Source: Streptomyces asoensis
Lineage (GTDB): Bacteria; Actinomycetota; Actinomycetes; Streptomycetales; Streptomycetaceae
Assembly: GCF_013085465.1 (NCBI RefSeq)
Contig: NZ_CP049838.1
Location: 6,200,001-6,264,000, forward strand
Reading direction: 5' to 3'
DNA: 64,000 nucleotides
In this document: positions 22,810 to 55,668 of the stretch, piece by piece
Position numbering within the stretch: position 1 is the first letter of the stretch
Layout: each line of letters opens with the position of its first letter
Notes under the pieces: generated by a model
The model's input: the letters and a program-made list of their open reading frames with translations, nothing else
Told to the model about the DNA's origin: nothing
Database searches by the model: none
Made by a program: the position numbers and the translations under genes

Positions 22810-22823
22810 TCTACGCGCGTTAC
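22810..22823. promoter_or_regulatory. Nucleoside-regulon palindrome, site 1 (bmpA-1)
   Basis: TCTACGCGCGTTAC matches 11 of 14 positions of TCTACGCGCGTAGA. It overlaps a TACTGT -10-like box (22821-22826), 109 nt before the bmpA-1 start. Confidence 0.75.
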
Positions 22824-22935
22824 TGTGCGCCGGAATCGCCACCGGGAAAGGCTTGTTGGGGAGCCCCTCCTGAACGGCGCCACCAAGGGGAAAGCGGGCC
22901 GGTCACGGCGCCGTGGGGATGAAGGGGTGCTTGCT

Positions 22936-24012
22936 ATGCGTCTGATATCTCGGAGGACGAGATTTTCCCGGGCCGCGGTGACCGTCGCGGTCGTCGCGCT
23001 CGCCGCCGCCGGCTGCGGCAAGTCCAGCACCGACTCCAAGTCGAGCGACTCGGAATCCAGCAGCGGCACGTACTCGGGCAAGGGCATCGGCCTCGCGTAC
23101 GACATCGGTGGCAAGGGCGACCAGTCCTTCAACGACGCCGCCTACGCCGGTTTCCAGAAGGCCGAGAAGGAATTCAAGATCGGCGGCCAGGACATCGAGC
23201 CGCAGGACGGCGAGTCCGACGCGGACAAGGTGCAGCGCCTGACCCAGCTCGCCCAGGCCGGCTACAACCCGGTGATCGGCGTCGGCTTCGCCTACGCGCC
23301 GGCCGTCAAGGAGGTCGCCGCCAAGTTCCCGAAGATCACCTTCGGGATCATCGACGACGAGCAGATCCAGGCGAAGAACGTCGCCGACATGGTCTTCCAC
23401 GAGGAGCAGGCCTCGTACCTGGCCGGTGTCGCCGCCGCCAAGGCCACCAAGAAGGCGCACATCGGCTTCATCGGCGGCGTGGACATCCCGCTGATCCACA
23501 AGTTCGAGGCCGGTTATGTCCAGGGCGCCAAGTCGGTCGACCCGAACATCAAGATCGAGTCGCAGTACCTGACCGAGACCGCCCAGGAAGGCGGCTTCTC
23601 CAGCCCCGACAAGGGCAAGGACGCGGCGAGCGGTCAGATCGAGGCGGGCGCCGACGTCATCTACCACGCGGCCGGCCTCTCCGGTCAGGGCGTCATCACC
23701 GAGGCCGCGGCCAAGAAGGTGTGGGCCATCGGCGTCGACTCCGACCAGTACAGCCAGAGCGCGCTGGCGGCGTACAAGGACTACATCCTCGGCTCGGCGC
23801 TGAAGAACGTCGGCGGCGCCGTCTACGACCTCGTGAAGTCCGTCCACGCGGGCAAGCCGCTGTCCGGTGTGGTCCGCGGCAGCCTCTCCAACGACGGGGT
23901 CGGATTCGCCGACACCAACCCGAAGTACAAGGCGATGACGGACGTCGTCGCGGCCGTCGACAAGGCCAAGCAGGACATCATCGACGGCAAGATCACGGTA
24001 AACACCAAGTAA
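22936..24012 (+). CDS. BmpA/Med-family nucleoside-binding lipoprotein 1
   Basis: A 358-residue substrate-binding lipoprotein. The signal peptide ends at ALAAAGC with the lipidated Cys, followed by a Ser-rich linker. The mature part has the BMP (PnrA/TmpC) fold: GLAYDIGGKGDQSFNDAAYAG binds the nucleoside, and GFAYAPAV, DDEQIQ and GVDIPLIHKFEAG are family blocks. It would capture nucleosides outside the cell for the ABC transporter at 25536-29601. GAAGGGG lies 8 nt before ATG 22936. It is highly similar to the next gene and has its own operator and a roughly 105-nt 5' leader. Confidence 0.92.
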   Translation: MRLISRRTRFSRAAVTVAVVALAAAGCGKSSTDSKSSDSESSSGTYSGKGIGLAYDIGGKGDQSFNDAAYAGFQKAEKEFKIGGQDIEPQDGESDADKVQRLTQLAQAGYNPVIGVGFAYAPAVKEVAAKFPKITFGIIDDEQIQAKNVADMVFHEEQASYLAGVAAAKATKKAHIGFIGGVDIPLIHKFEAGYVQGAKSVDPNIKIESQYLTETAQEGGFSSPDKGKDAASGQIEAGADVIYHAAGLSGQGVITEAAAKKVWAIGVDSDQYSQSALAAYKDYILGSALKNVGGAVYDLVKSVHAGKPLSGVVRGSLSNDGVGFADTNPKYKAMTDVVAAVDKAKQDIIDGKITVNTK

Positions 24013-24072
24013 CGGCCCGAAACCCGTTCCGCCGGGCCCTTGCTACGCCCTTACGGGCGTCCTTGCAGCCCA

Positions 24073-24101
24073 TGCGCCCCTTGCCTCCCGCAAGGGGCGC
24101 A
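24073..24101 (+). terminator. Hairpin terminator after bmpA-1
   Basis: A perfect 12-bp stem (24073-24084 with 24090-24101) with a 5-nt loop; no T run follows. Confidence 0.8.
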
Positions 24102-24176
24102 CTGCTGTCCGTAACCTGGACCGCAACTGTGGCCACAGCTCGGTAACGGACCGGACAGAAGGGTTTTTCCGTCTGG

Positions 24177-24190
24177 TCTACGCGCGTTAC
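24177..24190. promoter_or_regulatory. Nucleoside-regulon palindrome, site 2 (bmpA-2)
   Basis: TCTACGCGCGTTAC is identical to site 1. It overlaps a TACGCT -10-like box (24188-24193), about 55 nt before bmpA-2. Confidence 0.8.
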
Positions 24191-24244
24191 GCTGCGGCGG
24201 AACCAGCGCCTGGTTTGGGCGCTTGCACAAAGGAGTCAAGTTCC

Positions 24245-25300
24245 ATGCGCCGGGTGTCCCGAATCGCGGTTGCGGGTGTTGCCACCGCAGCTCTCGCCGT
24301 GACCGTTTCCGCTTGCGGAAGCTCCTCCACGTCGTCGTCGTCCTCCTCCAACAGCAGTGACAAGAACCTGGGCCTCGCGCTCGCGTACGACGTCGGTGGC
24401 AAGGGCGACCAGTCCTTCAACGACGCCGCCACGGCCGGCCTGGACAAGGCCGACAAGGAGTTCGGCTACAAGTCCACCGCTGTCGAGCCGCAGGACGGCG
24501 AGTCCGACGCGGACAAGGTGCAGCGCCTGGAGAGCCTCGCCAAGCAGGGCTACAACCCGGTGATCGGCGTCGGCTTCGCCTACGCGCCGGCCGTCAAGGA
24601 GGTCGCGGCCAAGTACCCGAAGACCACCTTCGGCATCGTCGACGACGAGCAGATCAAGGCCGACAACGTCGCCGACCTCGTCTTCCACGAGGAGCAGGCC
24701 TCCTACCTCGCCGGTGTCGCCGCCGCCAAGGCCACCAAGACCAACACCGTCGGCTTCGTCGGTGGCGTGGACGTTCCGCTGATCCACAAGTTCGAGGCCG
24801 GCTTCAAGCAGGGCGTCGAGGACACCAAGAAGGGCGTCACGGTCAAGTCGCAGTACCTGACCGAGACCGCCGCCGAGGGTGGCTTCTCCAGCCCCGACAA
24901 GGGCGAGAGCGCCGCCGAGGGCCAGATCGACGCCGGTGCGGACGTCGTCTACGCCGCCGCCGGTCTGTCCGGTCAGGGTGTCATCAAGGCCGCCAACGCC
25001 CACAAGATCTGGGCCATCGGCGTCGACTCCGACCAGTACAAGCAGGACGCGCTGAAGGCGTACAAGGACTCGATCCTCACCTCGGCCATGAAGAACGTCG
25101 AGGGCGCGGTCTACACGCTGGCCAAGTCCGTCAAGGACGGCAAGCCCGCGACCGGCGTCGTCCGCGGCAGCCTCGAGAACGGCGGCGTGAGCGTGTCGGA
25201 CTCGAACCCGTCCTTCGCGGGCAACACCGCGATCCAGGACGCGATCAAGAAGGCCGAAGAGGGCATCAAGAACGGCACCATCACGGTCAAGACCTCCTGA
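24245..25300 (+). CDS. BmpA/Med-family nucleoside-binding lipoprotein 2
   Basis: A 351-residue paralogue of the preceding protein. The lipobox is TVSAC, followed by a poly-Ser linker. It shares long blocks with copy 1, such as VGGKGDQSFNDAA, QDGESDADKVQRL, NPVIGVGFAYAPAVKEVAA and GLSGQGVI. AAAGGAG 9 nt before ATG 24245 fixes the start. A terminator and a separate palindrome-bearing promoter lie between the copies, so each is its own unit. The copies may differ in nucleoside preference (inference). Confidence 0.92.
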   Translation: MRRVSRIAVAGVATAALAVTVSACGSSSTSSSSSSNSSDKNLGLALAYDVGGKGDQSFNDAATAGLDKADKEFGYKSTAVEPQDGESDADKVQRLESLAKQGYNPVIGVGFAYAPAVKEVAAKYPKTTFGIVDDEQIKADNVADLVFHEEQASYLAGVAAAKATKTNTVGFVGGVDVPLIHKFEAGFKQGVEDTKKGVTVKSQYLTETAAEGGFSSPDKGESAAEGQIDAGADVVYAAAGLSGQGVIKAANAHKIWAIGVDSDQYKQDALKAYKDSILTSAMKNVEGAVYTLAKSVKDGKPATGVVRGSLENGGVSVSDSNPSFAGNTAIQDAIKKAEEGIKNGTITVKTS

Positions 25301-25493
25301 CCTTCTGTCAGAGGCCTTGGCCAATGAAGCGCTGTAATGGCAGCGTTACGGCCACGGAACCGGGCGCGGGAAGGATGTCCTCCCCGCGCCCCGTTCGCGC
25401 GGCAGAATGCTCGGAACGGATCGAGACTTGATCGGGATCTCCCTCAAGATCATTCAAGATCGACCTGATCCGGGCACTATTTAAAGCAGGGGC

Positions 25494-25507
25494 GCTACGC
25501 GCGTAGA
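25494..25507. promoter_or_regulatory. Nucleoside-regulon palindrome, site 3 (ABC transporter operon)
   Basis: GCTACGCGCGTAGA has a perfect 12-bp palindrome, CTACGCGCGTAG, at 25495-25506, about 28 nt before the proposed ATC start codon. Confidence 0.85.
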
Positions 25508-25521
25508 GCGACCCCTTTTCC

Positions 25522-25527
25522 AAGGAG
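25522..25527 (+). promoter_or_regulatory. Ribosome-binding site that decides an unusual ATC start
   Basis: AAGGAG is the only strong SD before the ABC ATPase frame. The in-frame codon 8 nt downstream is ATC (25536); no ATG, GTG or TTG occurs in frame between the upstream stop (25482) and GTG 25665. Confidence 0.7.
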
Positions 25528-25535
25528 AGTGCGCC

Positions 25536-27220
<1,685 letters not shown>

Positions 27221-27224
<4 letters not shown>

Positions 27225-28339
27225 AGAAGTTCGACAAGGAGCGCGTGCTCCTCGCGGTGGCCGGCCCGGTCATCGCGCTCGTCGCGGCGATCCTGCTGAC
27301 CTCGGTCGTGCTGATCGCCTCGGGCAAGAGCCCGATCGAGCCGTACACGCTCATGCTGGAGCAGGCCGGCTACTCCGACGTCCAGGTCCTGATCGTCAAC
27401 CAGGCCTCGATGTACTACGTCGCCGCCCTCGCGGTCGCCATCGGCTTCCGCATGAACCTGTTCAACATCGGCGTCGACGGCCAGTACCGCCTCGCCGCGA
27501 TGATGACCGCCGTGGTCGGCGCGAACATCGCCCTGCCGTCCTTCCTCCAGATCCCGCTGCTGCTCCTGGTCGGCGTCCTCACCGGCGCCTTCTGGGCCGG
27601 CATCGCGGGCGTCCTGAAGGTCACCCGCGGGGTCAGCGAGGTGGTGGCGACGATCATGCTGAACGCGATCGCCACCAGCGTCATCGGCTACCTCACCCTC
27701 GACAACATGTGGGGCGTGCAGGTCGGCAACAACAACACCACCGGCATCATGAAGGACTCCGGCTGGGTCCCCGGCATCGACCTCGGCGCCGACGTCGGCG
27801 AGATCTACGGCCTGGTCTTCCTCGCCATCGCCCTGGGCATCGTCTACTGGGTCGTCCTCAACCGCACCCGCTTCGGCTTCGACCTGCGCGCCACCGGCGA
27901 GTCCGAGACCGCCGCCGCGGCCTCCGGCGTCGACGCCAAGAAGATGGTCCTCACCGCGATGCTCATCTCCGGCGGCATCGCGGGCCTCTCCGGCCTGCCC
28001 CTGCTGCTCGGCGACGCCCACACCTACAGCCTGAGCTTCCCCACGGGTCTCGGCTTCACCGGCATCACCATCGCCCTGCTCGGCCGCAACAACCCGGTCG
28101 GCATCGCGTTCGCCGCGCTCCTGATCGCCTTCCTCGACAAGGCCTCTCCCGCCCTCGACTACGCGACCCCGGTGGCGTACGAGAAGGAGATCGCCACGAT
28201 CATGCAGGGCCTCATCGTCTTCGCGGTCGTCATCTCGTACGAGGCCGTACGCCAGTGGGGTCTGCGCCGTCAGCAGAAGCGCGTCGGCGCCGAGCTCGCC
28301 GCCGCCGCCCAGAACACCAAGAAGGAGGTGACGGTCTGA
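27221..28339 (+). CDS. Nucleoside ABC transporter permease 1
   Basis: A 372-residue inner-membrane permease of the branched-chain/simple-sugar type (BPD_transp_2, YufP/NupB-like), with eight to ten hydrophobic segments. FRMNLFNIGVDGQYRLAAM is the family motif near the second helix. GVSEVVATIMLNAIA and RATGESETAAAASGVD lie at the cytoplasmic loop contacting the ATPase. The ATG overlaps the ATPase stop (ATGA). With the second permease it should form the heterodimeric channel served by the BmpA lipoproteins. Confidence 0.92.
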
Positions 28340-29601
28340 TGAGCACCACGACCATCGCCAAGCCGCAGGCGAAGCAGCCCGGCAAGGGCGGCCGCAAACT
28401 CTCGCTCCCGGTCCTCCTGCTGATCATCGCGGGCGTCCTGGTGCTGACCTCGATCGTCCGCCTCATCACCGGCGCGGACGGCATCACCTCCACCGGCCAG
28501 ATGTCCACGGCCCTGCGCCTCGCCGTCCCGATCGGCCTCGCGGGCCTCGGCGGCCTGTGGGCCGAACGCGCGGGCGTCGTCAACATCGGCCTCGAGGGCA
28601 TGATGATCCTCGGCACCTGGTTCGGCGCCTGGGCCGGTTACCAGTGGGGCCCGTGGACGGGCGTCGTCTTCGGCATCATCGGCGGCGCGCTCGGCGCCGT
28701 CCTGCACGCCGTCGCGACCGTCACCTTCAACGTGAACCACATCGTCTCCGGTGTGGCCGTCAACATCCTGGCCCTCGGCACCACCCGCTACCTGTCGAAG
28801 TTCGCCTTCGAGGGCGTCGAGCAGGGCTCCTCCAAGCAGTCCCCGCCGATCGACTCGCTGGGCACCTTCGACATCCCAGGGCTCTCCGGCTGGCTGGACA
28901 CGCTCAACGAGAAGCACTGGTTCCTGATCTCGGACATCGCCGGCCTGGTCGGCGGTCTGATCACCGACCTGTCGCCCCTCACCGTCGTCGCCGTCGCCCT
29001 CGTCCCGGCCACCTGGTGGGTGCTGTGGCGGACGGCCTTCGGCCTGCGGCTGCGGTCCTGCGGCGAGAACCCGGTGGCCGCCGAGTCCCTCGGCGTCAAC
29101 GTCTACAAGTACAAGTACATCGCCGTGATCATCAGCGGTGGCTTCGCGGGCCTCGGCGGCGCGTTCCTGTCCATCGTGGCCTCGAACGTCTACCTCGACG
29201 GCCAGACCGCGGGCCGCGGCTACATCGGCCTCGCGGCGATGATCTTCGGCAACTGGATGCCGGGCGGCCTCGCCCTCGGCGCGGGCCTGTTCGGCTACAC
29301 CGACAGCCTCAACCTGCGCGGCGGCACCACCAACGTGCACGCGCTGATCCTGCTCCTTGCGATCGTGCTGGTCTTCGGCGCGGCCTACCTGGCGTGGAAG
29401 AAGAAGTACGTCCCCGCCGTCGTCACCGCGCTGATCTCGGCCCTGATGTTCGTCTGGTACCTCGGCACGGACGAGGTCCCGCGCCAGGTCGTGACGGCCG
29501 CGCCGTACGTCGTCACCCTGCTGGTGCTCTCGCTGTCCGCCCAGTCCCTCAGGATGCCCAAGGCGGACGGCATGCCGTACCGGAAGGGGCAGGGCAAGTG
29601 A
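28339..29601 (+). CDS. Nucleoside ABC transporter permease 2
   Basis: A 420-residue permease partner (YufQ/NupC-like). LGGLWAERAGVVNIGLEGMM is the family block, followed by FNVNHIVSGVAVNILALGTTRYL and LRSCGENPVAAESLGV. About ten helices are expected, with a hydrophobic C-terminal pair. ATG 28339 shares one base with the stop of permease 1, and AAGGAGGTGA at 28322-28331 is a near-perfect anti-16S complement 7 nt upstream. Its own stop overlaps the cdd start (GTGA). Confidence 0.92.
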   Translation: MSTTTIAKPQAKQPGKGGRKLSLPVLLLIIAGVLVLTSIVRLITGADGITSTGQMSTALRLAVPIGLAGLGGLWAERAGVVNIGLEGMMILGTWFGAWAGYQWGPWTGVVFGIIGGALGAVLHAVATVTFNVNHIVSGVAVNILALGTTRYLSKFAFEGVEQGSSKQSPPIDSLGTFDIPGLSGWLDTLNEKHWFLISDIAGLVGGLITDLSPLTVVAVALVPATWWVLWRTAFGLRLRSCGENPVAAESLGVNVYKYKYIAVIISGGFAGLGGAFLSIVASNVYLDGQTAGRGYIGLAAMIFGNWMPGGLALGAGLFGYTDSLNLRGGTTNVHALILLLAIVLVFGAAYLAWKKKYVPAVVTALISALMFVWYLGTDEVPRQVVTAAPYVVTLLVLSLSAQSLRMPKADGMPYRKGQGK

Positions 29602-30002
29602 CCCCGCCCGCCGCCGCGGTCGACTGGGAGAAGCTGCGCACGGTGGCCCGGGACGCCATGTCCCGGGCGTACGCCCCGTACTCCGGCTTCCCGGTCGGCG
29701 TGGCGGCCCTCGTCGACGACGGCCGGATCGTGTCGGGCTGCAACGTCGAGAACGCCTCCTACGGCATCGGCCTGTGCGCCGAGTGCGGGCTGGTCTCCGA
29801 GCTCCAGAACACCGGAGGCGGCCGGCTCACGCACTTCACCTGCGTAGACGGCAGGGGCGAGATCCTCGTCCCGTGCGGCCGCTGCCGCCAGCTGCTCTAC
29901 GAGTTCGGCGGCCCCGAGCTGCTGCTGGAGACGCCGGCGGGGATCCTGCCGCTGGCCGAGATGCTCCCGCAGGCCTTCGGCCCGGGCCACCTCACCAAGT
30001 AA
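29598..30002 (+). CDS. cdd: Cytidine deaminase
   Basis: A 134-residue homotetrameric-type cytidine deaminase that converts cytidine and deoxycytidine to uridine forms. The zinc site is complete: Cys60 and Glu62 in CAE, and PCGRC with Cys93 and Cys96. AYAPYSGFPVGVAAL and GCNVENASYG bind the nucleoside. GTG 29598 overlaps the stop of permease 2, so deamination is coupled to import. A strong terminator follows the gene. Confidence 0.95.
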   Translation: MTPPAAAVDWEKLRTVARDAMSRAYAPYSGFPVGVAALVDDGRIVSGCNVENASYGIGLCAECGLVSELQNTGGGRLTHFTCVDGRGEILVPCGRCRQLLYEFGGPELLLETPAGILPLAEMLPQAFGPGHLTK

Positions 30003-30005
30003 GTC

Positions 30006-30044
30006 CCGCGCGGCCCCTCTGACTGGCGCAGAGGGGCCGCGCGG
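30006..30044 (+). terminator. Terminator of the transporter-cdd operon
   Basis: A perfect 16-bp GC-rich stem (30006-30021 with 30029-30044) with a 7-nt loop, then TTT. Confidence 0.92.
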
Positions 30045-30108
30045 TTTCTGGAACGTCTTGCCGCACCACCTTGCACCCGCACTACGGTGCACCACCGGAA
30101 GGAAAGCC

Positions 30109-31401
<1,293 letters not shown>

Positions 31402-31445
31402 ACAGATCGCCCGAACGGTCGCCCGACGGCGGCTCTCCCGCTCCG

Positions 31446-32880: not shown

Positions 32881-32936
32881 ACCACAGCGCTCAGACCACA
32901 GCGCTCAGCCCACAGCGCTCAGCCCACCGTGCTCAG
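32881..32936. repeat. 14-bp tandem repeat, four copies
   Basis: Four consecutive 14-bp units of the form ACCACAGCGCTCAG, the last diverged, fill the gap and overlap the stop codon of the clamp-like gene. Confidence 0.85.
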
Positions 32937-34048
32937 ACCAGCTGCTTCACGGACATCAGCAGGTGCCGGTGGGCCTCGGGCGCGTCCGCCGCGCCCAGCA
33001 GCGCCCGCTGTCCCGTCCCCAGCAGCTCCACCCGCAGCCTCGGCGCCTCGAAGGAGGCCAGCGCGTCCAGCAGGTAGGCGGGGTTGAAGGCCACGGTGAC
33101 CTCCTCGGCGCCGGTCAGTCCGGCGGGCAGCCGCTGCGTGGCCACGTCGTCGCCGTACCCGGCGCGCAGCAGGACGGACCCGGCCGAGAAGTCCAGCCGT
33201 ACCGGGCTGTTCGCCTCCGCCACCACCGCGACTCTCCGCACGGCCTCCGTCAGCGCCCCGCTCTCCACCTCGGCGACCGCGGCCCCCGCCATGTCGAACA
33301 GCTTCCCGTAGGAGGGCAGCCGTCCGTCCAGCCGCCGGACCACCGTCCGCGTCCGCCCGCCCTCGAACCCGATCGGGCCGGTCCCCGAGGCTCCGTCGAG
33401 CCCGACCCGGACGGTCCCGCACCGGGCCAGCGACCGGGTCACGTCCAGCAGCCGCCGGGCCGGCACGAGCGCCTCCGCCACCCCTTCGGCGGCCGCCTCC
33501 GGCTTCCACTCCAGCCGCCGTACCGCGTACCGGTAGCGGTCCGACGCCGACAGTGTCATCTCCTCGCCGTCAAGGCGCAGTTGGACGCCCGTCAGCACCG
33601 GGAGCGTGTCGTCGCGGCCGGCGGCCACCGCGACCTGGGCGACGGCGGTCGCGAACGCGGCCGCGTCCACGGTGCCGTACGCCCGCGGCGGTTCGGGCGG
33701 GGTGGGGTACTCCTCGCGCGGGAGTGTCGACAGGCCGAAGCTGGTGCCGCCCGCCTCGACCGTGAACCGGGTGCCGGCCACGGCGCAGCTCACCGGCCCG
33801 TCCGGCAGCACCTTGCAGATGTCGAGGAGCCGGCGGCCGAGCACGAGCACCCGGCCCGCCGTGCCGACCTCGGCGTCGGTCTCGATCCGTGCCGCCGTCT
33901 CGAAGTCGAACCCCGACACGGTCAGCCGGCCCGCCGCCGCGTCCAGCAGCAGCCCGCCCAGCACGGGTACCGGCGTACGGGCGGGCAGCGCGCGGGCCGC
34001 CCAGGCCACCGCCTCGGCGAGGTCACCGCGGTCGATCCGGAACTCCAT
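32933..34048 (-). CDS. DNA polymerase III beta-subunit (sliding clamp) paralogue
   Basis: A 371-residue DnaN-like protein with three clamp domains. MEFRIDRGDLAEAVAWAARALPARTPVPVLGGLLL is the classic DnaN start. LPREEYP, DTLPVLTGVQLRLDGEEMTLSASDRYRYAVRR and the C-terminal HRHLLMSVKQLV are the other clamp blocks; the end resembles the DnaN LLMPVR tail with Ser for Pro. Streptomyces keeps its replicative dnaN near the origin, and no replication genes lie here, so this is probably an accessory clamp. ATG 34048 is chosen for AGGGGG 6 nt upstream. Confidence 0.85.
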   Translation of the reverse strand: MEFRIDRGDLAEAVAWAARALPARTPVPVLGGLLLDAAAGRLTVSGFDFETAARIETDAEVGTAGRVLVLGRRLLDICKVLPDGPVSCAVAGTRFTVEAGGTSFGLSTLPREEYPTPPEPPRAYGTVDAAAFATAVAQVAVAAGRDDTLPVLTGVQLRLDGEEMTLSASDRYRYAVRRLEWKPEAAAEGVAEALVPARRLLDVTRSLARCGTVRVGLDGASGTGPIGFEGGRTRTVVRRLDGRLPSYGKLFDMAGAAVAEVESGALTEAVRRVAVVAEANSPVRLDFSAGSVLLRAGYGDDVATQRLPAGLTGAEEVTVAFNPAYLLDALASFEAPRLRVELLGTGQRALLGAADAPEAHRHLLMSVKQLV

Positions 34049-34148
34049 CAAAAACCCCCTGCTCGCACCGGTCGTCGCGCGGAGGCTATGCGCCACCACT
34101 GACAACCGGCCCCGAGCAGGGGGAGGACCGCGGGAAGCCGCGGGACGT

Positions 34149-37323: not shown

Positions 37324-37337
37324 TCTACGCGCGTAGG
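37324..37337. promoter_or_regulatory. Nucleoside-regulon palindrome, site 4 (add)
   Basis: TCTACGCGCGTAGG contains the perfect 12-bp palindrome CTACGCGCGTAG. It ends 3 nt before the TAGAGT -10 box. Confidence 0.85.
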
Positions 37338-37352: not shown

Positions 37353-38516
37353 ATGACGAGCCAGAGCACCCAGGCGGGCATCACCCCGAGCTCGGACCAG
37401 ATCCGGCGGGCACCCAAGGTTCTGCTGCACGACCATCTCGACGGCGGGCTGCGTCCCGGCACGATCGTCGACCTCGCCCGGGACTCCGGGTACGCCCAAC
37501 TCCCGGAAACCGACCCCGACAAGCTCGGCATCTGGTTCCGGGAGGCCGCCGACTCCGGTTCGCTGGAACGGTACCTGGAGACCTTCTCGCACACCGTCGG
37601 CGTGATGCAGACCCGCGACGCGCTCGTCCGGGTCGCCCGCGATTGCGCCGAGGACCTCGCCGAGGACGGTGTCGTCTACGCCGAGGTGCGCTACGCGCCC
37701 GAGCAGCACCTCGACGGCGGGCTGAGCCTCGAAGAGGTCGTCGAGGCCGTCAACGAGGGCTTCCGGGAGGGCGAGCGGACGGCCCGGCAGAACGGCCACC
37801 GCATCCGTGTCGGCGCCCTGCTCACCGCCATGCGGCACGCGGCCCGCTCCCTGGAGATCGCCGAACTCGCCAACCGCTACCGGGACCTGGGGGTCGTGGG
37901 CTTCGACATCGCGGGCGCGGAGGCGGGCTTCCCGCCCACCCGGCACCTCGACGCCTTCGAGTACCTGAAGCGCGAGAACAACCACTTCACCATCCACGCC
38001 GGCGAGGCCTTCGGGCTGCCGTCGATCTGGCAGGCCCTCCAGTGGTGCGGCGCCGACCGGCTCGGTCACGGGGTGCGCATCATCGACGACATCGAGATCG
38101 CCGCCGACGGCGGTGTGAAGCTCGGCCGGCTCGCCTCCTACGTCCGCGACAAGCGCATCCCGCTGGAGCTGTGCCCCAGCTCCAACCTCCAGACCGGAGC
38201 GGCCGCCTCCTACGCCGAGCACCCCATCGGCCTGCTGCGCCGGCTCCACTTCCGGGCCACCGTCAACACGGACAACCGTCTGATGTCCGGCACCAGCATG
38301 AGCCGGGAATTCGAGCACCTTGTCGACGCGTTCGGCTATACGCTCGACGATCTCCAGTGGTTCTCTGTCAATGCTATGAAGTCAGCATTCATTCCTTTCG
38401 ATGAACGACTTGCCATGATCAGTGACGTGATCAAGCCCGGCTATTCCGAGCTGAAGTCCGAATGGCTGTTCCAGCAGACCGCCTCCACCAGCGGTTCTGC
38501 GGAAACGGAAGGCTGA
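37353..38516 (+). CDS. add: Adenosine deaminase
   Basis: A 387-residue metallo-deaminase converting adenosine and deoxyadenosine to inosine forms. Zinc ligands His26 and His28 lie in LLHDHLDGG, with His215 and catalytic Glu218 in HAGE, His239 in LGHGV and Asp307 in NTDN. SSNLQTG is also conserved. The start follows an apparent leaderless promoter covered by the regulon palindrome. From about 38320 to the stop, codon third positions become much less GC-rich than in the rest of the gene. Inosine from this step is the substrate of PunA encoded at 54807-55631. Confidence 0.95.
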
Positions 38517-45908: not shown

Positions 45909-45952
45909 CGGAAGCCGCGCCGCCCCCGGACGGAGGGGTGGCGCGGCTTCCG
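45909..45952. terminator. Bidirectional terminator
   Basis: A 13-bp perfect stem (45909-45921 with 45940-45952), with further CCCC/GGGG pairing inside, between convergent genes. Confidence 0.85.
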
Positions 45953-45976
45953 CGTCTCGGGGCCCGGTGATCTGCC

Positions 45977-46891
45977 CTAGTACGACGAACCCGAGGCGCC
46001 CAGTGAACCCGTGGGGTGCCAGACCGTCTTCGTCTCCAGGAAGGCCGTCATGCGGTCCGTTCCGGGGGCGGCGCTCCAGTCGTCCACAGGCTGTGGACGA
46101 AGGACGCGCTTCAGGTTGTCGGCCGCCGCGATCTCCAGCTCCTTCGCCAGCACGTCGTCGGCGCCCGCGAGGTCGATCGCGTTGACGTCCTGGTGGGCGG
46201 CGAGGGGTGCCGCGATCTCCGCCGTACGGCCGGAGAGGACGTTGACGACCCCGCCCGGCACGTCGGAGGTGGCCAGCACCTCGCCGAGCGACAGCGCCGG
46301 GAGCGGGGAGCGCTCGCTCGCGATCACGATCGCCGTGTTGCCGGTCGCGATCACCGGGGCGAGCACCGACACCAGGCCCAGGAAGGACGACTCCTGCGGG
46401 GCCAGGACCGCGACCACGCCCGTCGGTTCGGGCGAGGAGAGGTTGAAGTACGGGCCCGCGACCGGGTTTCCGCCGCCCACGACCTGGGCGATCTTGTCGG
46501 TCCAGCCCGCGTACCAGACCCAGCGGTCGATCGTCGCCTCGACCTGGTCGGCGGCCTTGGACTTCGACAGGCCCTCGGCCTCGGCGACCTCGGTGACGAA
46601 CTGGCCCTTGCGGCCCTCCAGCATCTCCGCGACGCGGTAGAGGATCTGGCCCCGGTTGTACGCCGTCGCCCCGGACCAGCCGCCGAACGCCTTGCGCGCG
46701 GCAACGACCGCGTCACGGGCGTCCTTGCGGGAGGACTGCGGTGCGTTGGCGAGCCACTTGCCCTTTGCGTCGGTCACCTCGTACACCCGGCCGCTCTCGG
46801 AACGCGGGAACTTCCCGCCGACGTACAGCTTGTAGGTCTTGAAGACGCTGAGCCGCTGCTGCTGTTCGGTCTTGTCGGTCTTATCGGACAT
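45977..46891 (-). CDS. Truncated aldehyde dehydrogenase homologue lacking the catalytic domain
   Basis: A 304-residue protein of the aldehyde dehydrogenase superfamily. Residues 20-245 match the coenzyme-binding half (KLYVGGKFPRSESGR, WSGATAYNRGQILYRVAEML, a VIATGNTAIVIASE segment). The catalytic half with the active Cys and general-base Glu is missing: no GQ-x-C motif occurs. After a short linker the C-terminus FLETKTVWHPTG resembles the oligomerisation strand (YTEVKTVTV) of full enzymes. The start overlaps the full-length enzyme's stop by 11 bp. Its codon use looks normal, so it is probably a functional non-catalytic partner and not a pseudogene. Confidence 0.82.
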   Translation of the reverse strand: MSDKTDKTEQQQRLSVFKTYKLYVGGKFPRSESGRVYEVTDAKGKWLANAPQSSRKDARDAVVAARKAFGGWSGATAYNRGQILYRVAEMLEGRKGQFVTEVAEAEGLSKSKAADQVEATIDRWVWYAGWTDKIAQVVGGGNPVAGPYFNLSSPEPTGVVAVLAPQESSFLGLVSVLAPVIATGNTAIVIASERSPLPALSLGEVLATSDVPGGVVNVLSGRTAEIAAPLAAHQDVNAIDLAGADDVLAKELEIAAADNLKRVLRPQPVDDWSAAPGTDRMTAFLETKTVWHPTGSLGASGSSY

Positions 46892-48332
46892 CGAGGTACG
46901 CCTCCAGGCCGTGGCGGCCGCCCTCGCGGCCGAAGCCCGACTCCTTGTAGCCGCCGAACGGCGACGTCGGGTCGAACTTGTTGAACGTGTTGGACCAGAT
47001 CACGCCCGCGCGGAGCTTGCTCGCCACCGCGAGGATGCGGGAGCCCTTCTCCGTCCAGATGCCGGCCGACAGGCCGTACGGCGTGTTGTTGGCCTTGGCG
47101 ACGGCCTCCTCCGGCGTGCGGAAGCTGAGGACCGACAGGACCGGGCCGAAGATCTCGTCGCGGGCGACGGTGTGCGCCTGGGTGACGTTCGTGAAGAGCG
47201 TCGGGGCGAACCAGTAACCGGACGTGGGCAGTTCGCAGGCCGGGGACCAGCGTTCGGCACCCTCCGCCTCGCCCTGCTCGACGAGCGAGGTGATGCGCGA
47301 GAGCTGCTCGGCGGAGTTGATCGCGCCGATGTCGGTGTTCTTGTCGAGCGGATCGCCGAGCCGGAGGGTGGCGAGGCGGCGCTTCAGCGACTCCAGCAGC
47401 TCGTCCTGGATCGACTCCTGGACGAGGAGCCGGCTGCCCGCGCAGCAGACCTGGCCCTGGTTGAAGAAGATGCCGCTGACGATGCCCTCGACGGCCTGGT
47501 CGATCGGCGCGTCGTCGAAGACGATGTTGGCGCCCTTGCCGCCCAGTTCGAGCGTGACCTTCTTGTGCGAGCCCGCGACCTGCCGGGCGATCGCCTTGCC
47601 GACGGCGGTGGAGCCGGTGAAGGCGACCTTGTTCACGTCCGGGTGCGCGACCAGCGCGGCGCCCGCGTCGCCGTAGCCGGGGAGGATGTTGACGACGCCC
47701 TTGGGCAGGCCCGCCTGGCGGCAGATGTCCGCGAAGAACAGGGCGGACAGAGGGGTGGTCTCGGCCGGCTTCAGGACGACCGTGTTGCCGGTGGCGAGCG
47801 CCGGGGCGATCTTCCACGCCAGCATCAGGAGGGGGAAGTTCCAGGGAATGACCTGGCCGGCGACGCCCAGCGGCCTGGGGGACGCTCCGAAACCGGCGTG
47901 GTCGAGCTTGTCCGCCCAGCCCGCGTAGTAGAAGAAGTGCGCGGCGACCAGGGGCAGGTCGGCGTCGCGCGTCTCCTTGATCGGCTTGCCGTTGTCCAGC
48001 GTCTCCAGGACGGCCAGTTCGCGGCTGCGCTCCTGGATGATCCGGGCGATGCGGAACAGGTACTTGGCGCGCTCGGAGCCCGGCAGCGCGGACCACTTCC
48101 CGAAGGCCTTGCGGGCGGCCCGCACGGCACGGTCGACGTCTGCCTCGCCCGCCTGGGCGATCTCGGAGAGGACCTCCTCGGTGGACGGCGAGACGGTCTT
48201 GAAGACCTTGCCCTCGGCCGCCTCGGTGAACTCACCGTCGATGAACAGGCCGTAGGAGGGGGCGATGTCGACGACCGAGCGGGACTCGGGGGCCGGAGCG
48301 TACTCGAATGCGGATGCAGTCGTGGATGCCAT
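46881..48332 (-). CDS. Aldehyde dehydrogenase (NAD(P)+-dependent), probably for acetaldehyde
   Basis: A 483-residue catalytic enzyme. PWNFPLLMLAWKIAPALATGNTVVLKPAE binds the cofactor; FTGSTAVGK follows; Glu262 in LELGGKG is the general base; Cys296 in NQGQVCCAGSR is the nucleophile. The chain stops at GLEAYLDVR, short of the usual C-terminal strand, which the truncated neighbour seems to carry. It lies 5 bp after deoC, which releases acetaldehyde from deoxyribose-5-phosphate, so acetaldehyde oxidation is the likely role (inference). ATG 48332 is the start. Confidence 0.9.
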   Translation of the reverse strand: MASTTASAFEYAPAPESRSVVDIAPSYGLFIDGEFTEAAEGKVFKTVSPSTEEVLSEIAQAGEADVDRAVRAARKAFGKWSALPGSERAKYLFRIARIIQERSRELAVLETLDNGKPIKETRDADLPLVAAHFFYYAGWADKLDHAGFGASPRPLGVAGQVIPWNFPLLMLAWKIAPALATGNTVVLKPAETTPLSALFFADICRQAGLPKGVVNILPGYGDAGAALVAHPDVNKVAFTGSTAVGKAIARQVAGSHKKVTLELGGKGANIVFDDAPIDQAVEGIVSGIFFNQGQVCCAGSRLLVQESIQDELLESLKRRLATLRLGDPLDKNTDIGAINSAEQLSRITSLVEQGEAEGAERWSPACELPTSGYWFAPTLFTNVTQAHTVARDEIFGPVLSVLSFRTPEEAVAKANNTPYGLSAGIWTEKGSRILAVASKLRAGVIWSNTFNKFDPTSPFGGYKESGFGREGGRHGLEAYLDVR

Positions 48333-48337
48333 GGTGA

Positions 48338-49300
48338 TCAGTCCACCGTCACGTAGTCGGGGCCGGAGTAGCGGCCGGTGGCCAGCTTCTGACGCTGCAT
48401 CAGCAGGTCGTTCAGGAGCGAGGAGGCGCCGAAGCGGAACCAGTGGTTGTCCAGCCAGTCCTCGCCCGCGGTCTCGTTGACCAGGACGAGGAACTTGATC
48501 GCGTCCTTGGTGGTGCGGATGCCGCCGGCGGGCTTCACGCCGACCTGGACGCCGGTCTGGGCGCGGAAGTCGCGCACGGCCTCCAGCATCAGGAGGGTGT
48601 TCGGGGGAGTGGCGTTGACGGCGACCTTGCCGGTCGAGGTCTTGATGAAGTCGGCGCCCGCGAGCATGCCGAGCCAGCTCGCCCGGCGGATGTTGTCGTA
48701 CGTCGACAGCTCGCCCGTCTCGAAGATGACCTTCAGCCGGGCGGACGTCCCGCACGCCTCGCGCACGGCGGTGATCTCGTCGTACACCTTCAGGTACTTG
48801 CCCGCGAGGAACGCTCCGCGGTCGATGACCATGTCGATCTCGTCGGCGCCCGCGGCGATGGCGTCGCGGACGTCCGCGAGCTTCACCTCGAGGGCGGCGC
48901 GGCCGGCCGGGAAGGCGGTGGCGACCGAGGCGACCTTGACGCCGGAGCCGGCGACGGCGGCCTTGGCGGTGGCGACCATGTCCGGATACACGCAGACCGC
49001 GGCCGTGGTCGGGGTCGTACGGTCGGTCGGGTCGGGGTGGACCGCCTTCGCGCCGAGCGCCCGGACCTTGCCCGGGGTGTCCGCGCCTTCCAGCGTCGTC
49101 AGGTCGACCATCGAGATGGCGAGGTCGATGGCGTACGCCTTCGCGGTCGTCTTGATGGAACGGGTGCCGAGCGCGGCGGCGCGCGCCTCCAGGCCGACCG
49201 TGTCGACGCCGGGCAGCCCGTGGAGGAAGCGGCGCAGCGAGCTGTCGGACGCCGTGACGTCCGTGAGTGCGTCGGCTGCGGTAGGTGTATTGGTGGGCAT
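48338..49300 (-). CDS. deoC: Deoxyribose-phosphate aldolase
   Basis: A 320-residue class I aldolase that cleaves 2-deoxyribose-5-phosphate to glyceraldehyde-3-phosphate and acetaldehyde. Schiff-base Lys220 lies in DFIKTSTGK and Lys256 in GVKPAGG; AAVCVYP and LKVIFETGEL are conserved. It is longer than E. coli DeoC because of an N-terminal extension of about 50 residues. The start may be ATG 49300 or GTG 49306. The latter is 6 nt from a TATGCT -10 box and would be leaderless. The gene heads the deoC-ALDH-truncated-ALDH operon under palindrome site 5. Confidence 0.95.
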   Translation of the reverse strand: MPTNTPTAADALTDVTASDSSLRRFLHGLPGVDTVGLEARAAALGTRSIKTTAKAYAIDLAISMVDLTTLEGADTPGKVRALGAKAVHPDPTDRTTPTTAAVCVYPDMVATAKAAVAGSGVKVASVATAFPAGRAALEVKLADVRDAIAAGADEIDMVIDRGAFLAGKYLKVYDEITAVREACGTSARLKVIFETGELSTYDNIRRASWLGMLAGADFIKTSTGKVAVNATPPNTLLMLEAVRDFRAQTGVQVGVKPAGGIRTTKDAIKFLVLVNETAGEDWLDNHWFRFGASSLLNDLLMQRQKLATGRYSGPDYVTVD

Positions 49301-49312
49301 GGTCACCAGACG

Positions 49313-49318
49313 AGCATA
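49313..49318 (-). promoter_or_regulatory. -10 box of deoC promoter
   Basis: TATGCT on the minus strand directly abuts the regulon palindrome and ends 6 nt before GTG 49306. A TGTACA hexamer lies 17 nt upstream of it. Confidence 0.5.
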
Positions 49319-49332
49319 TCTACGCGCGTAGC
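49319..49332. promoter_or_regulatory. Nucleoside-regulon palindrome, site 5 (deoC operon)
   Basis: TCTACGCGCGTAGC on the plus strand contains the perfect 12-bp palindrome and lies immediately upstream of the deoC -10 box. Confidence 0.85.
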
Positions 49333-49423
49333 GGCTGTACACCCCGGCGGTTGCATCCGTGCTCGTCGTGAACGGCGGGGCTGCGGATGAGCGGGCCGGT
49401 GGGCGTCGGGCAGAATCGGGGCC

Positions 49424-50140: not shown

Positions 50141-50625
50141 GGGCGGGGTGCGGGGTGCCTAGTGCCGGTGGGGTGCGGGGTGCGGGGTGCCTAGTGCCGG
50201 TGGGGTGCTGGGCGCTGAGGGTCAGGTGCCGGGCGCTGAGTGCGGGGTGCCGAGGTGCGGGGCGCGGGGTGCTAGTGCCGGTGGGGTGCGGGGTGCGGGG
50301 TGCGGGGTGCTGGGCGCTGAGGGTCGGGTGCCGGGCGCTGAGTGCGGGGTGCCGAGGTGCGGGGTGCGGGGTGCAGGGTGCCGAGGATCGGGTGCCGGGC
50401 GCGGGGCGCCTACCGCGTGCCGGGCGCTAAGTGCCCGATGCGGGGTGCCGAGGTGCGGGGCGCGGGGTGCTAGTGCCGGTGGGGTGCGGGGTGCTGGGCG
50501 CTGAGGGTCGGGTGCCGGGCGCGGGGCCGCCTACCTAATGCCGGGCGCTGAGTGCCGGGTGCGGGGTGCCGAGGGCCGGGCGCGGGGTGCCTAGTGCGGG
50601 GTGCCGAGGGGCGGGCGTGGGGGTG
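50141..50625. repeat. G-rich degenerate tandem-repeat array (GTGCGGGGTGC type)
   Basis: About 485 bp are built from variants of GTGCGGGGTGCC, GTGCCGGTGGG and TGGGCGCTGAGGGTC. Larger blocks recur, for example a segment at 50207 again at 50309 (102 bp apart) and partly at 50493. No coding signal follows from either strand. Confidence 0.88.
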
Positions 50626-50731
50626 AGGGCTCGGAGGCCCGGGGTGGGTTGTCGGGTGCGGTCGGGCGGGGTGGATTGTGATCTGGGCGTTGCCGTGGAT
50701 CACAGGGTCTTTCGTCATGATCGGCACATGG

Positions 50732-50804
50732 CCCGGTCGTGACGGCCGTGGCAGGTGCCCCGGTCATGGCGGCCGTGGCAGGTGCCCCGGTCGTGGCGGC
50801 CGTC
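50732..50804. repeat. 27-bp tandem repeat, 2.7 copies
   Basis: Units start CCCGGTCGTGACGGCCGTGG at 50732, 50759 and 50786 with one to three changes. They end 40 bp before the next gene. The rest of the 704-bp gap (50626-50731) shows no gene. Confidence 0.88.
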
Positions 50805-50844
50805 GTGGGCCGGAGATCTGGTGGGCCGGTAGGTCGGGGGAGCG

Positions 50845-52539: not shown

Positions 52540-52566
52540 CGCCAACGGGCCGGCCCGGCCCGCAGG

Positions 52567-52629
52567 GCCCGGGGCACCCGTAAGGGCCGCCCGCCCGCCC
52601 TCTGTGCAGCCCTTACGGGCGCCCCGGGC
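52567..52629 (+). terminator. Long hairpin terminator
   Basis: A 9-bp and an 11-bp stem (52567-52575 with 52621-52629; 52577-52587 with 52609-52619) are separated by one mismatch. Confidence 0.85.
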
Positions 52630-52644
52630 TCGTGTGGCTCACAG

Positions 52645-53002
52645 GGGCTCGAGCGATATGCGCGGCCCGCATCCCGGCAGGCGGCCTCCCCCGGCACGCC
52701 CACAGGGTCGGCAGGGGGAGGCAGAGGCATCAACTGATGCGGGTGCGGTTCGCAGGGCTCGTGGCGCGTATGACGCGCGCGGCCCCTGCGGGGTTCGCCG
52801 GCCTCGTAGGGCTCGAGCGGTGTGTGCGGTCCGCAGGCCGGCAGGCGGCCTCCCCCGGCACGCCCACAGGGTCGGCAGGGGGAGGCAGAGGCATCAACTG
52901 ATGCGGGTGCGGTTCGCAGGGCTCGTGGCGCGTATGACGCGCGCGGCCCCTGCGGGGTTCGCCGGCCTCGTAGGGCTCGAGCGGTGTGTGCGGTCCGCAG
53001 GC
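52645..53002. repeat. 164-bp tandem duplication, 2.2 copies
   Basis: Copy 1 is 52645-52808, copy 2 is 52809-52972 and a 30-bp third start is 52973-53002. Most positions are identical. The 581-bp gap 52540-53120 holds this repeat and the terminator above; no gene was recognised. Confidence 0.9.
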
Positions 53003-53120
53003 CCTGCAAGCCGGTCTTCCCTGGCACGCCCGCGCCGGAAGGGCCGGCAGGAGCGCACGGCTCACCGGCTGCGCGCGGCGTACGGCCGCGCGGTTCCTGT
53101 CGGTCGGGTGGTGTGCGGGG

Positions 53121-54752
53121 TCAGATGCCGGCTGCTGCCGACAGGTCGTGCTTGATGGCGGTGAGCAGGGCGTTCGCCGTGCTGTGGGCCGTCGGGAGGT
53201 CGGCGTGGGCGGGGACCGGGACCACGACCTCCAGGTAGCACTTCAGCTTCGGTTCGGTGCCGCTGGGGCGGACGATGACCCGGGCGCCGTCCAGCGTGTA
53301 GCGCAGGCCGTCGGTGGGGGGCAGCTTGTCCGTGCCCAGGGTGAGGTCCTCGGCCCGGGTGATGGCCAGGCCCGCGAGGGAGGTCGGGGGCTGCTCGCGG
53401 AGCCGCTCCATCGCGCGGGCGATGAGCGAGAGGTCCTGTACGCGCACCGAGAGCTGGTCGGTGGCGTGCAGGCCGTGCTCCACGGCGAGGTCGTCGAGCA
53501 GGTCGAGGAGGGTGCGGCCCTCGGACTTGAGGGTGGAGGCGAGTTCCGTGATGAGCAGGGCGGCGGTGATGCCGTCCTTGTCGCGTACGCCCTCGGGGTC
53601 CACGCAGTAGCCGAGGGCCTCCTCGTAGCCGTAGCGCAGGCCGTCGACGCGGGCGATCCACTTGAAGCCGGTAAGGGTCTCCTCGTAGGGCAGGCCCGCC
53701 TTCTCGGCGATACGGCCGAGGAGGGAGGAGGACACGATCGACTCGGCGAACGTGCCCCGCGCCCCGCGCCGGACGAGGTGCGCGGCGAGGAGCGAGCCGA
53801 CCTCGTCGCCCCGCAGCATGCGCCAGTCGCCCTCGTGGGGCACGGCCACGGCGCAGCGGTCGGCGTCCGGGTCGTTGGCGATGATCAGGTCGGGGCCGGT
53901 CTCGCGGGCCCTGGCGAAGGCCAGATCCATCGCGCCGGGCTCTTCCGGGTTGGGGAAGGCGACGGTCGGGAAGTCCGGGTCGGGGTCGGCCTGCTCGGCG
54001 ACGAGGACGGGCTCGGGGAAGCCCGCGCGGGCGAAGGCGGCCAGCAGGACGTCCTTGCCCACGCCGTGCATCGCCGTGTACACCGTGCGCGCCGTGCGGG
54101 GGGAGTCCGCGGCGAGGACGGCGTCCGTACGGGCCAGATAGGCGTCGAGGACGGCGTCGTCGAGGGTCTGCCAGCCGGCCTCCGGACGCGGAACGTCCTT
54201 CAGGGCGGCGATCGCGTCGATCTCGGCCGCGATCTCGGCGTCGGCGGGCGGCACGATCTGCGAGCCGTCCCCCAGGTACACCTTGTAGCCGTTGTCGCGC
54301 GGCGGGTTGTGGCTGGCGGTGACCTCCACACCGGCCACCGCGCCCAGGTGCCTTATGGCGAAGGCGAGGACGGGGGTGGGCAGGGGCCGGGGGAGCACGG
54401 CCGCCCGGAAGCCCGCGCCCGTCATCACGGCCGCGGTGTCGCGGGCGAAGTCCTCCGACTTGTGGCGGGCGTCGTAGCCGATGACGACGACGCCGCCGGT
54501 CCCGCCGTTCTCGGTGAGGTACGCGGCCAGGCCGGCCGCGGCCCGGATCACGACGGAGCGGTTCATCCGCATGGGCCCGGCCCCGAGCTCACCGCGGAGC
54601 CCGGCGGTACCGAACTGGAGGGTGCCGCCGAAGCGCTCGGCGAGCTCGGTGACGTCTCCGGCGTCCAGGAGCTCGGCGAGTTCCGCGCGGGTCTCCGGGT
54701 CGGGATCCTCGGCGAGCCAGGTCTGGGCGCGGGCGATGAGATCGTCGTGCAC
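53121..54752 (-). CDS. Phosphopentomutase/phosphoglucomutase-like (alpha-D-phosphohexomutase family, PGM2 type)
   Basis: A 543-residue mutase. The phosphoserine loop is TASHNPP, the metal loop DPDADR, the sugar-binding loop GYEEALGY and the phosphate loop RPSGTEPK. RFGGTLQFGTAGLRGELGAGP is the N-terminal signature. Relatives of this length (PGM2-like) act on ribose-1-phosphate and deoxyribose-1-phosphate as well as glucose phosphates. It lies 54 bp after punA on the same strand, and DeoC needs deoxyribose-5-phosphate, so phosphopentomutase is the likely main role. The start is GTG 54752. Confidence 0.88.
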   Translation of the reverse strand: MHDDLIARAQTWLAEDPDPETRAELAELLDAGDVTELAERFGGTLQFGTAGLRGELGAGPMRMNRSVVIRAAAGLAAYLTENGGTGGVVVIGYDARHKSEDFARDTAAVMTGAGFRAAVLPRPLPTPVLAFAIRHLGAVAGVEVTASHNPPRDNGYKVYLGDGSQIVPPADAEIAAEIDAIAALKDVPRPEAGWQTLDDAVLDAYLARTDAVLAADSPRTARTVYTAMHGVGKDVLLAAFARAGFPEPVLVAEQADPDPDFPTVAFPNPEEPGAMDLAFARARETGPDLIIANDPDADRCAVAVPHEGDWRMLRGDEVGSLLAAHLVRRGARGTFAESIVSSSLLGRIAEKAGLPYEETLTGFKWIARVDGLRYGYEEALGYCVDPEGVRDKDGITAALLITELASTLKSEGRTLLDLLDDLAVEHGLHATDQLSVRVQDLSLIARAMERLREQPPTSLAGLAITRAEDLTLGTDKLPPTDGLRYTLDGARVIVRPSGTEPKLKCYLEVVVPVPAHADLPTAHSTANALLTAIKHDLSAAAGI

Positions 54753-54806
54753 GGTGGATGAACCTCTCGTGTGTCGTCGTGAGTTTCCGCGCCCCCGGTG
54801 GGGCCC

Positions 54807-55631
54807 CTAGAGCCGACCCAGCACCTGTGCCAGCAGGGAGCCCATGCGGGTCGCCGAGTCGCGTCCCGCCTGGAGAACCTCCTCGTGGTTCAGCGGCTCG
54901 CCGGTCATGCCGGCGGCGAGGTTGGTCACGAGGGAGATGCCGAGCACCTCGGCCCCGGCCTCACGGGCCGCGATGGCCTCGAGCACGGTCGACATGCCCA
55001 CCAGGTCCGCGCCGATGGTGCGGGCCATCCGGATCTCGGCCGGCGTCTCGTAGTGCGGGCCGGGGAACTGGGCGTAGACGCCCTCCTCCAGCGTGGCGTC
55101 GATCTCCTTGCACAGCGTGCGCAGCCGCGGGGAGTACAGGTCCGTGAGGTCCACGAAGTTCGCGCCGACGATGGGGGACGTCGCCGTGAGGTTGATGTGG
55201 TCGCTGATCAGCACCGGCTGCCCGGGGCGCATGCCCTCGCGCAGGCCGCCGCAGCCGTTCGTCAGCACGATCGTCTTGCAGCCGGCCGCCACCGCCGTGC
55301 GGACACCGTGGGCGACGGCGGCGACACCGCGGCCCTCGTAGTAGTGGGTGCGGCCCAGGAAGACCAGCGCACGCTTCGCGCCGATCTGGTACGAGCGGAT
55401 CTTGCCGCCGTGGCCCTCGACCGCCGGCGGCGGGAATCCGGGCAGCTCGGTGACCTGGAACTCGGCGTCGGGAGCCCCCAGGGCGTCCACGGCCGGTGCC
55501 CAGCCGGAGCCCATCACGAGGGCGACGTCGTGGGTCTCGGCGCCGGTCAGTTCGCGCAGCCGCGCGGCGGCGGCGTCGGCGGCGGCGTGGGGGTCGCCCT
55601 GGATGTCGTCCGGGAGAAGAGATGCGTTCAC
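54807..55631 (-). CDS. punA: Purine nucleoside phosphorylase (trimeric, PunA type)
   Basis: A 274-residue trimeric PNP splitting inosine and guanosine forms to base and (deoxy)ribose-1-phosphate. LVMGSGW binds phosphate; [44 protein letters not shown] with the purine-site Glu, and [11 protein letters not shown] are all typical. The start is GTG 55631, 6 nt after a TACCCT -10 box (leaderless). Site 6 of the regulon palindrome lies 12 bp further upstream. The mutase gene follows and is probably co-transcribed. Confidence 0.95.
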
Positions 55632-55637
55632 GCGATG

Positions 55638-55643
55638 AGGGTA
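55638..55643 (-). promoter_or_regulatory. -10 box of leaderless punA promoter
   Basis: TACCCT on the minus strand ends 6 nt before GTG 55631; the palindrome at 55655-55668 would cover the -35 region. Confidence 0.5.
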
Positions 55644-55654
55644 GCCGGTTCCGG

Positions 55655-55668
55655 CCTACGCGCGTAGA
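55655..55668. promoter_or_regulatory. Nucleoside-regulon palindrome, site 6 (punA)
   Basis: CCTACGCGCGTAGA contains the perfect 12-bp CTACGCGCGTAG palindrome. Confidence 0.85.

Follow-up and report, generated by a model that had tools for sequence, protein, structure and literature searches.

The nucleoside gene cluster and its palindromic sites

The window analysed here, a stretch of 64,000 nucleotides, covers bases 6,200,001–6,264,000 of the one-contig genome of Streptomyces asoensis (10.04 Mb) and carries genes for the import and breakdown of nucleosides: two genes for BMP-type binding proteins (bmpA1 and bmpA2), a transporter operon (nup) with cdd and deoA, the gene add, deoC followed by two aldehyde dehydrogenase-family genes, and punA followed by a mutase-family gene (Table 1). 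Judging from protein family and context, the transporter would carry nucleosides and the mutase would act on pentose phosphates. A first-pass annotation had proposed that six palindromic 14-mers, at positions 22810, 24177, 25494, 37324, 49319 and 55655, define one regulon of these genes, and the subject of this study is the 12-bp palindrome that they contain.

All six 14-mers were found at these coordinates, and each stands upstream of a nucleoside gene or operon, as had been claimed. The sites at 25494, 37324, 49319 and 55655 contain the perfect 12-bp palindrome CTACGCGCGTAG, likewise as claimed, and differ by one mismatch each from the 14-mer TCTACGCGCGTAGA. Both bmpA sites (22810 and 24177) read TCTACGCGCGTTAC, with three mismatches to TCTACGCGCGTAGA, and their 12-mer is a conserved variant, CTACGCGCGTTA.

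The exact palindrome CTACGCGCGTAG occurs four times in the 10.04 Mb genome, with all copies inside 30.2 kb of the window, and these precede the nucleoside transporter operon, add, deoC and punA by 16–29 bp; the reversed motif, used as a control, has no exact copy in the genome. When up to two mismatches of the 12-mer are allowed, only the six known places are found in the window, in agreement with the earlier statement that there is no further match. It should be noted that this count is not significant by itself (6 places versus 4.5 expected, with 26 of 100 shuffles reaching 6), and the 14-mer with up to three mismatches gives a similar picture (6 versus 3.17 expected, 10 of 100 shuffles reaching 6). 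The significance of the finding rests on the clustering of the exact copies at this locus, on the absence of exact copies of the reversed motif, on the positions of all six sites at nucleoside genes and on the recurrence of the sites across the family.

Table 1. Palindromic sites, nucleoside genes and the DeoR-family gene in the window, with the basis of each assignment.
Feature	Position	Strand	Remarks
Variant operator CTACGCGCGTTA	22811..22822		113 bp before bmpA1; sequence match
bmpA1, BMP-type nucleoside-binding lipoprotein	22936..24012	+	domain search; start chosen by eye
Variant operator CTACGCGCGTTA	24178..24189		55 bp before bmpA2; sequence match
bmpA2, BMP/PnrA-like binding protein	24245..25300	+	PF02608; PDB relatives include TmpC 2fqw
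Exact operator CTACGCGCGTAG	25495..25506		before nup-cdd-deoA operon
Nucleoside ABC transporter ATPase (putative substrate)	25536..27224	+	probable ATC start codon
ABC permease 1	27221..28339	+	PF02653
ABC permease 2	28336..29601	+	PF02653
cdd, cytidine deaminase	29598..30002	+	NF004064 above cut-off, residues 354-480 of ORF 28557-30002; start approximate
deoA, thymidine phosphorylase	30115..31401	+	NF004490 above cut-off
Exact operator	37325..37336		16 bp before add
add, adenosine deaminase	37353..38516	+	NF006847 above cut-off
Aldehyde dehydrogenase-family protein, downstream of deoC	45977..46891	-	PF00171
Aldehyde dehydrogenase, downstream of deoC	46881..48227	-	PF00171 in ORF 46881-48755; start approximate, from domain match
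deoC, deoxyribose-phosphate aldolase	48338..49300	-	PF01791
Exact operator	49320..49331		19 bp before deoC; adjoins TATGCT -10-like box
Phosphoglucomutase/phosphomannomutase-family protein	53121..54752	-	PF02878-PF02880
punA, purine nucleoside phosphorylase family	54807..55631	-	PF01048
Exact operator	55656..55667		24 bp before punA
DeoR-family regulator, unproven candidate	58236..59201	+	PF08220 + PF00455

Distribution of the palindrome across genomes

The search of related Streptomyces genomes suggested by the first-pass annotation showed that the palindrome is present throughout the genus: all 151 genomes contain two to six exact copies each, 575 in total compared with 68 for the reversed motif (both totals were summed from a hand-copied table). 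At the family level, at least one exact copy was found in 120 of 121 Streptomycetaceae genomes, representing 16 of 17 genera. The only family genome lacking an exact copy (G445) has forms with one and two mismatches at deoC and punA.

Outside Streptomycetaceae, the exact motif is near background. A class-level search found it in 33 of 33 genomes of the genus versus 9 of 262 other genomes, and an order-level search in 47 of 47 genomes of the genus versus 3 of 13 genomes of sister families. Two of the three sister-family copies lie inside an IMP dehydrogenase gene and the third in no called gene; none of the exact sites examined outside the family (these three and the one in G212) resembles a nucleoside promoter. 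Of the upstream stretches compared at deoC, all six from the family have the site with one mismatch or fewer, and all six from sister families have at best three mismatches, one of the latter stretches being short. The system thus seems to have arisen together with Streptomycetaceae.

Chance matches in GC-rich DNA would account for counts near background at one or two mismatches in a single genome or window. As an explanation of the sites as a whole they are extremely improbable, given the excess of the exact motif in all 151 genomes, its recurrence at unlinked promoters and the divergence of the flanking sequences.

Conservation at individual promoters

Pattern searches yielded 92 loci of the family, the matches that became loci being chosen by the search tool, and in 78 of them the site directly precedes punA (34 loci), nup (19), add (16), the gene for a second adenosine deaminase (6) or deoC (3). 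In promoter groups anchored on the site, agreement was 91–100% within the 12-mer versus 31–63% in the flanks, the former values being inflated by the retention of best matches with at most two mismatches only; promoters with short flanks and duplicate windows were also dropped before counting, which left 139 sites. Among these, CTACGCG is invariant and the right half varies. The kept add promoters are exact in 24 of 24 cases and the kept punA promoters in 46 of 51, and the bmpA variant TCTACGCGCGTTA[AC] is present in 24 of 27 kept bmpA-type promoters. In genomes chosen for having few or no exact sites, a form with at most two mismatches was found at deoC (10/10), punA (11/11), add (7/7) and bmpA-type genes (7/7). 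A common site therefore precedes several separate nucleoside operons above chance expectation.

Besides the inflated site identity, several observations weigh against a single operator acting at all of these places. At one mismatch, the S. asoensis genome contains 36 places (4 exact and 32 others) versus 34 for the reversed motif, from which most of the one-mismatch sites should be chance occurrences, and any single one-mismatch target may be one. The first-pass annotation had named a random spread of the motif over the genome as the outcome that would speak against its proposal; such a spread is not seen for the exact motif, while at one mismatch the count equals that of the reversed control. 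In addition, 14 of the 92 family loci lie outside the main promoters, and the nup ATPase promoter has no site in 7 of 7 genomes chosen for few exact sites. In these seven cases bmpA stands directly upstream, and nup may share the bmpA promoter.

Candidate targets outside the window

The palindrome marks genes of nucleoside import and breakdown, as first proposed, but that description proved too narrow. Sites are also found at unlinked genes that encode a secreted nuclease, nucleotidases, a purine-type permease and the second adenosine deaminase, and two genera have them at purN.

The nuclease was examined at scale. Among the best 80 of 487 named relatives, from Streptomyces, Kitasatospora, Actinacidiphila and one other actinobacterium, 77 promoters carry the site with at most one mismatch (4 exact and 73 with one mismatch), 2 have two mismatches and 1 has four. 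A match within one mismatch was given neither by the reversed motif (0 of 80 promoters, never better than two mismatches) nor, in any promoter, by up to 100 shuffled palindromes. The 77 promoters are not independent, the genomes being related, though their flanks have diverged. When the first 600 residues of one of these proteins were searched, they hit the ExeM/NucH model for extracellular endonucleases with a score short of the cut-off (88 of 300 bits).

Of the 32 one-mismatch sites in the S. asoensis genome, 31 were examined (the site at 7964261 was left out). Three of them (L015, L164 and L169) precede, by 27–101 bp, genes whose products have metallophosphatase and 5'-nucleotidase C domains, one lies 63 bp before a gene for a secreted LTD-domain protein (L161), and one stands about 78 bp before a PF00860 permease gene and also faces a small gene (L162). 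Four cases are ambiguous. The site in L159 overlaps the first codons of a secreted GmrSD_C-domain protein; that in L166 lies in the interval between purS, identified by its PurS domain, and lsr2, and is exact in G245 (L065); that in L173 is found at an OppC-type permease gene and is exact in G009 (L155); and that in L006 belongs to a secreted protein family containing the string GNADWIIS, for which the site is exact in L125, L144, L145, L147, L148 and L156. The remaining examined sites stand at apparently unrelated genes.

Seven loci thus have a gene of the GNADWIIS family downstream of the motif (that of L006 on the minus strand, up to about position 1447). Pfam searches of its members (L144, L156 and L006) gave only Ig-like, carbohydrate-binding or weak matches, and an NCBIfam search (L144) gave none; the family is possibly an undescribed enzyme of nucleic-acid scavenging.

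In other genomes, exact copies precede pairs of a nucleotidase gene and an mshD-like gene in G128 and G343 (L028 and L052). Near purN, an exact site was found in six loci of two genera (L128, L129, L139, L141, L143 and L146), the formyltransferase domain being confirmed in four of the six. Six genomes have the site at the gene for the second adenosine deaminase, which shares about 62% identity with add; PF00962 was detected in one of these proteins. Overall, the finding is real and wider than originally proposed, and it makes the palindrome a family-wide candidate operator.

Position in the promoter and proposed mode of action

Conserved -10-like boxes follow the palindrome at a distance of about 1 bp at deoC (TATGcT), about 4 bp at add (TAnagT) and about 12 bp at punA (tacnCt). 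The site is accordingly predicted to lie between the -35 and -10 regions at deoC and add and at about the -35 region at punA. The first-pass annotation had read such placement as a sign of repression; the location in the core promoter region agrees with it, and repression itself is plausible. If the punA box is correctly assigned, the punA site is untranscribed, which argues against an RNA element.

An activator usually needs a fixed spacing to its promoter, and the variable distance between site and -10 box favours a blocking repressor. Binding by an activator would fit the site at about the -35 region of punA; it appears rather improbable, because the deoC and add sites lie between -35 and -10 and the -10-like boxes follow at differing distances (about 1, 4 and 12 bp).

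On the basis of these sequence data, CTACGCGCGTAG is probably the operator of one DNA-binding regulator of nucleic-acid scavenging in Streptomycetaceae, and this regulator is most likely a dimeric repressor. By occupying the core promoter, such a repressor would keep the scavenging genes at a low level. Accumulation of nucleosides or of one of their breakdown products, for example a pentose phosphate, would release it, and the secreted nuclease, nucleotidases, nucleoside importer, deaminases, phosphorylases and deoC would then rise together.

Candidate regulators

The first-pass annotation had pointed to the DeoR-family gene at 58236–59201. Its product has an HTH_DeoR domain and a C-terminal DeoRC domain that would sense a sugar phosphate such as deoxyribose 5-phosphate, and the gene lies 2.6 kb from the punA site. 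An ortholog is present in all 121 Streptomycetaceae genomes (E below 1e-60), and all 13 sister-family genomes have only DeoR relatives of at most 44% identity, a boundary that, within the order, matches that of the motif.

Inside the order the distribution of the ortholog fits this candidate, but other data make it doubtful that this protein is the regulator. Its own promoter has no site in 31 of 31 loci (best matches with four to five mismatches, and three to five in further genera). Among 148 genomes searched at class level, DeoR relatives with 54–69% identity occur in 13 that belong to other families; 12 of these lack the exact motif and G227 has one copy. In the five distant relatives that were aligned, the helix-turn-helix (HTH) region with its recognition helix is nearly the same as in the S. 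asoensis protein, and the distant relatives, where examined, adjoin genes for an ABC ATPase, a sugar-binding protein, an aldose epimerase or a glycosyltransferase. Many other regulators may also have the same family distribution. We take SCO4920 to be the counterpart of this gene in S. coelicolor. Further, parts of PMC3224704 place SCO4920 in a co-expression module featuring bldN and regulators, which also speaks against the assignment, and parts of PMC4848846 list it among glucose-responsive regulators.

A GATC array before the nup operon, considered as a DeoR site, was rejected, as it is not conserved (6 copies in the 170 bp of S. asoensis and 0–5 in 19 others, some of them within coding sequence). 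Palindromes near the DeoR relatives of other families, compared by eye, showed no clear common motif. A DeoR paralog at 4,436,060 of the S. asoensis genome (L076, position 1732) has CTACGCGCGGAT, with two mismatches, about 60 bp upstream; this is a weak lead, because chance alone should give a match of this quality roughly once every 14 kb. As a separate observation, the promoter of the DeoR-family gene in the window (about 58090–58236) is strongly conserved in 31 family loci up to the start codon (GTTACTGTCAGTTTCGTG), which suggests a tightly controlled and perhaps leaderless transcript.

It is fairly likely that the regulator is a different protein encoded elsewhere, for example of the LacI or BlaI/CopY type, and not autoregulated through the site. 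A central CpG is typical of LacI-type operators, and those of the BlaI/CopY type follow the layout C-TACA-NN-TGTA-G; both are close in layout to C-TACG-CG-CGTA-G in the present motif, which differs from the BlaI/CopY type by G/C in place of A/T. The S. asoensis genome has 46 matches to the LacI domain, and in the 30 of these loci that were examined no site with at most two mismatches precedes the gene. Neither the 4 exact nor the 31 examined one-mismatch sites of this genome (of 32) stand clearly before a regulator gene, and no recurrent regulator was seen by eye among the neighbours of several unlinked targets. In one genome an exact site precedes an HTH gene (L132), which looks like a chance case. 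The operator sequence itself can serve as bait for finding its regulator.

Other features of the locus

The nup ATPase gene (25536, plus strand) apparently starts with ATC: in 20 of 20 family loci, GGAGAGTGCG[CT]CATC is in frame with a conserved ITKRFPG, and 5 of the 20 have no ATG, GTG, TTG or CTG between the last in-frame stop and ITKRFPG. Initiation at a non-canonical codon thus seems to be conserved in this regulated transporter. Amid the nucleoside genes, the gene at 32933–34105 (minus strand) encodes all three DNA polymerase III beta-clamp domains and is possibly a second clamp.

Significance and comparison with known systems

As they develop, Streptomyces recycle some of their own mycelium. 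On balance, we lean towards a model in which one undescribed operator and its regulator, dating from the base of Streptomycetaceae, run the whole path from extracellular DNA to central metabolism: secreted nuclease and nucleotidases, nucleoside import, deamination, phosphorolysis and cleavage of deoxyribose phosphate. Their reach would extend to the transport of purines and, in some genera, to their de novo synthesis. If this is true, feeding on the DNA of dead hyphae would be coupled to growth. Because it connects the uptake and breakdown of nucleosides with a secreted nuclease and with nucleotidases, the candidate operator makes recycling testable as one regulon. It also points to new candidate targets, among them a secreted protein family for which the libraries searched gave no named function.

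We take SCO4885, SCO4901, SCO4914 and SCO4916 to be counterparts of genes in the window. SCO4885 is described as a putative nucleoside-binding lipoprotein (PMC6593405), SCO4914 as deoxyribose-phosphate aldolase (PMC3293853) and SCO4916 as a possible alternative phosphomannomutase (PMC5982138). As an independent hint, PMC7244524 reports that S. coelicolor has higher amounts of the adenosine deaminase SCO4901, together with three putative nucleases, than S. lividans.

A palindromic operator governing a nucleoside regulon is of a known kind; searches of open papers found no description of the present member, and the 12-mer itself turned up only as a crystallised oligonucleotide. In PMC8063756 and PMC8510090 it is a synthetic oligonucleotide whose crystals are of the A-DNA form (PDB 5MVK); six other papers that contain the motif or parts of it deal, by their titles, with unrelated subjects.

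Three tandem CACTAC-N4-GTAGTG palindromes with varying centres were seen between two genes of one genome (L127, about 1470–1550). Presumably they resemble BlaI/CopY-type operators and are unlike the present regulon: the layout of the half-sites is similar, but their centre varies, whereas GCGC is nearly fixed in the 139 kept sites.

Phosphate (Pho) regulation is another system that handles secreted nucleotide breakdown. The PHO box is a direct repeat, in contrast to the palindrome found here, and to our knowledge the import genes, deoC and punA are not classic Pho targets. The secreted 5'-nucleotidase SCO4152 appears under Streptomyces Pho regulation in PMC13033682.

Another comparison is with the LacI-family regulators AdeR, HpxR, UriR and the global PurR, which sections of PMC4052901 connect with palindromic operators and with nucleoside use or purine synthesis; a limited text search of that paper met Streptomycetaceae solely in connection with LacI gene counts and with the SCO5692 regulon. 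The present system is alike in its palindromic operator and in having purN under the motif in two genera, and it differs in that no LacI gene was linked to the motif in the loci examined.

A further known system is formed by DeoR and CytR of Escherichia coli, repressors of nucleoside uptake and deo-type breakdown that are induced by nucleosides or deoxyribose phosphate. The likeness would lie in a repressor set for uptake and breakdown genes; the operators differ, and secreted nucleases and nucleotidases are not known as core targets in E. coli, whereas in Streptomycetaceae they carry the candidate operator.

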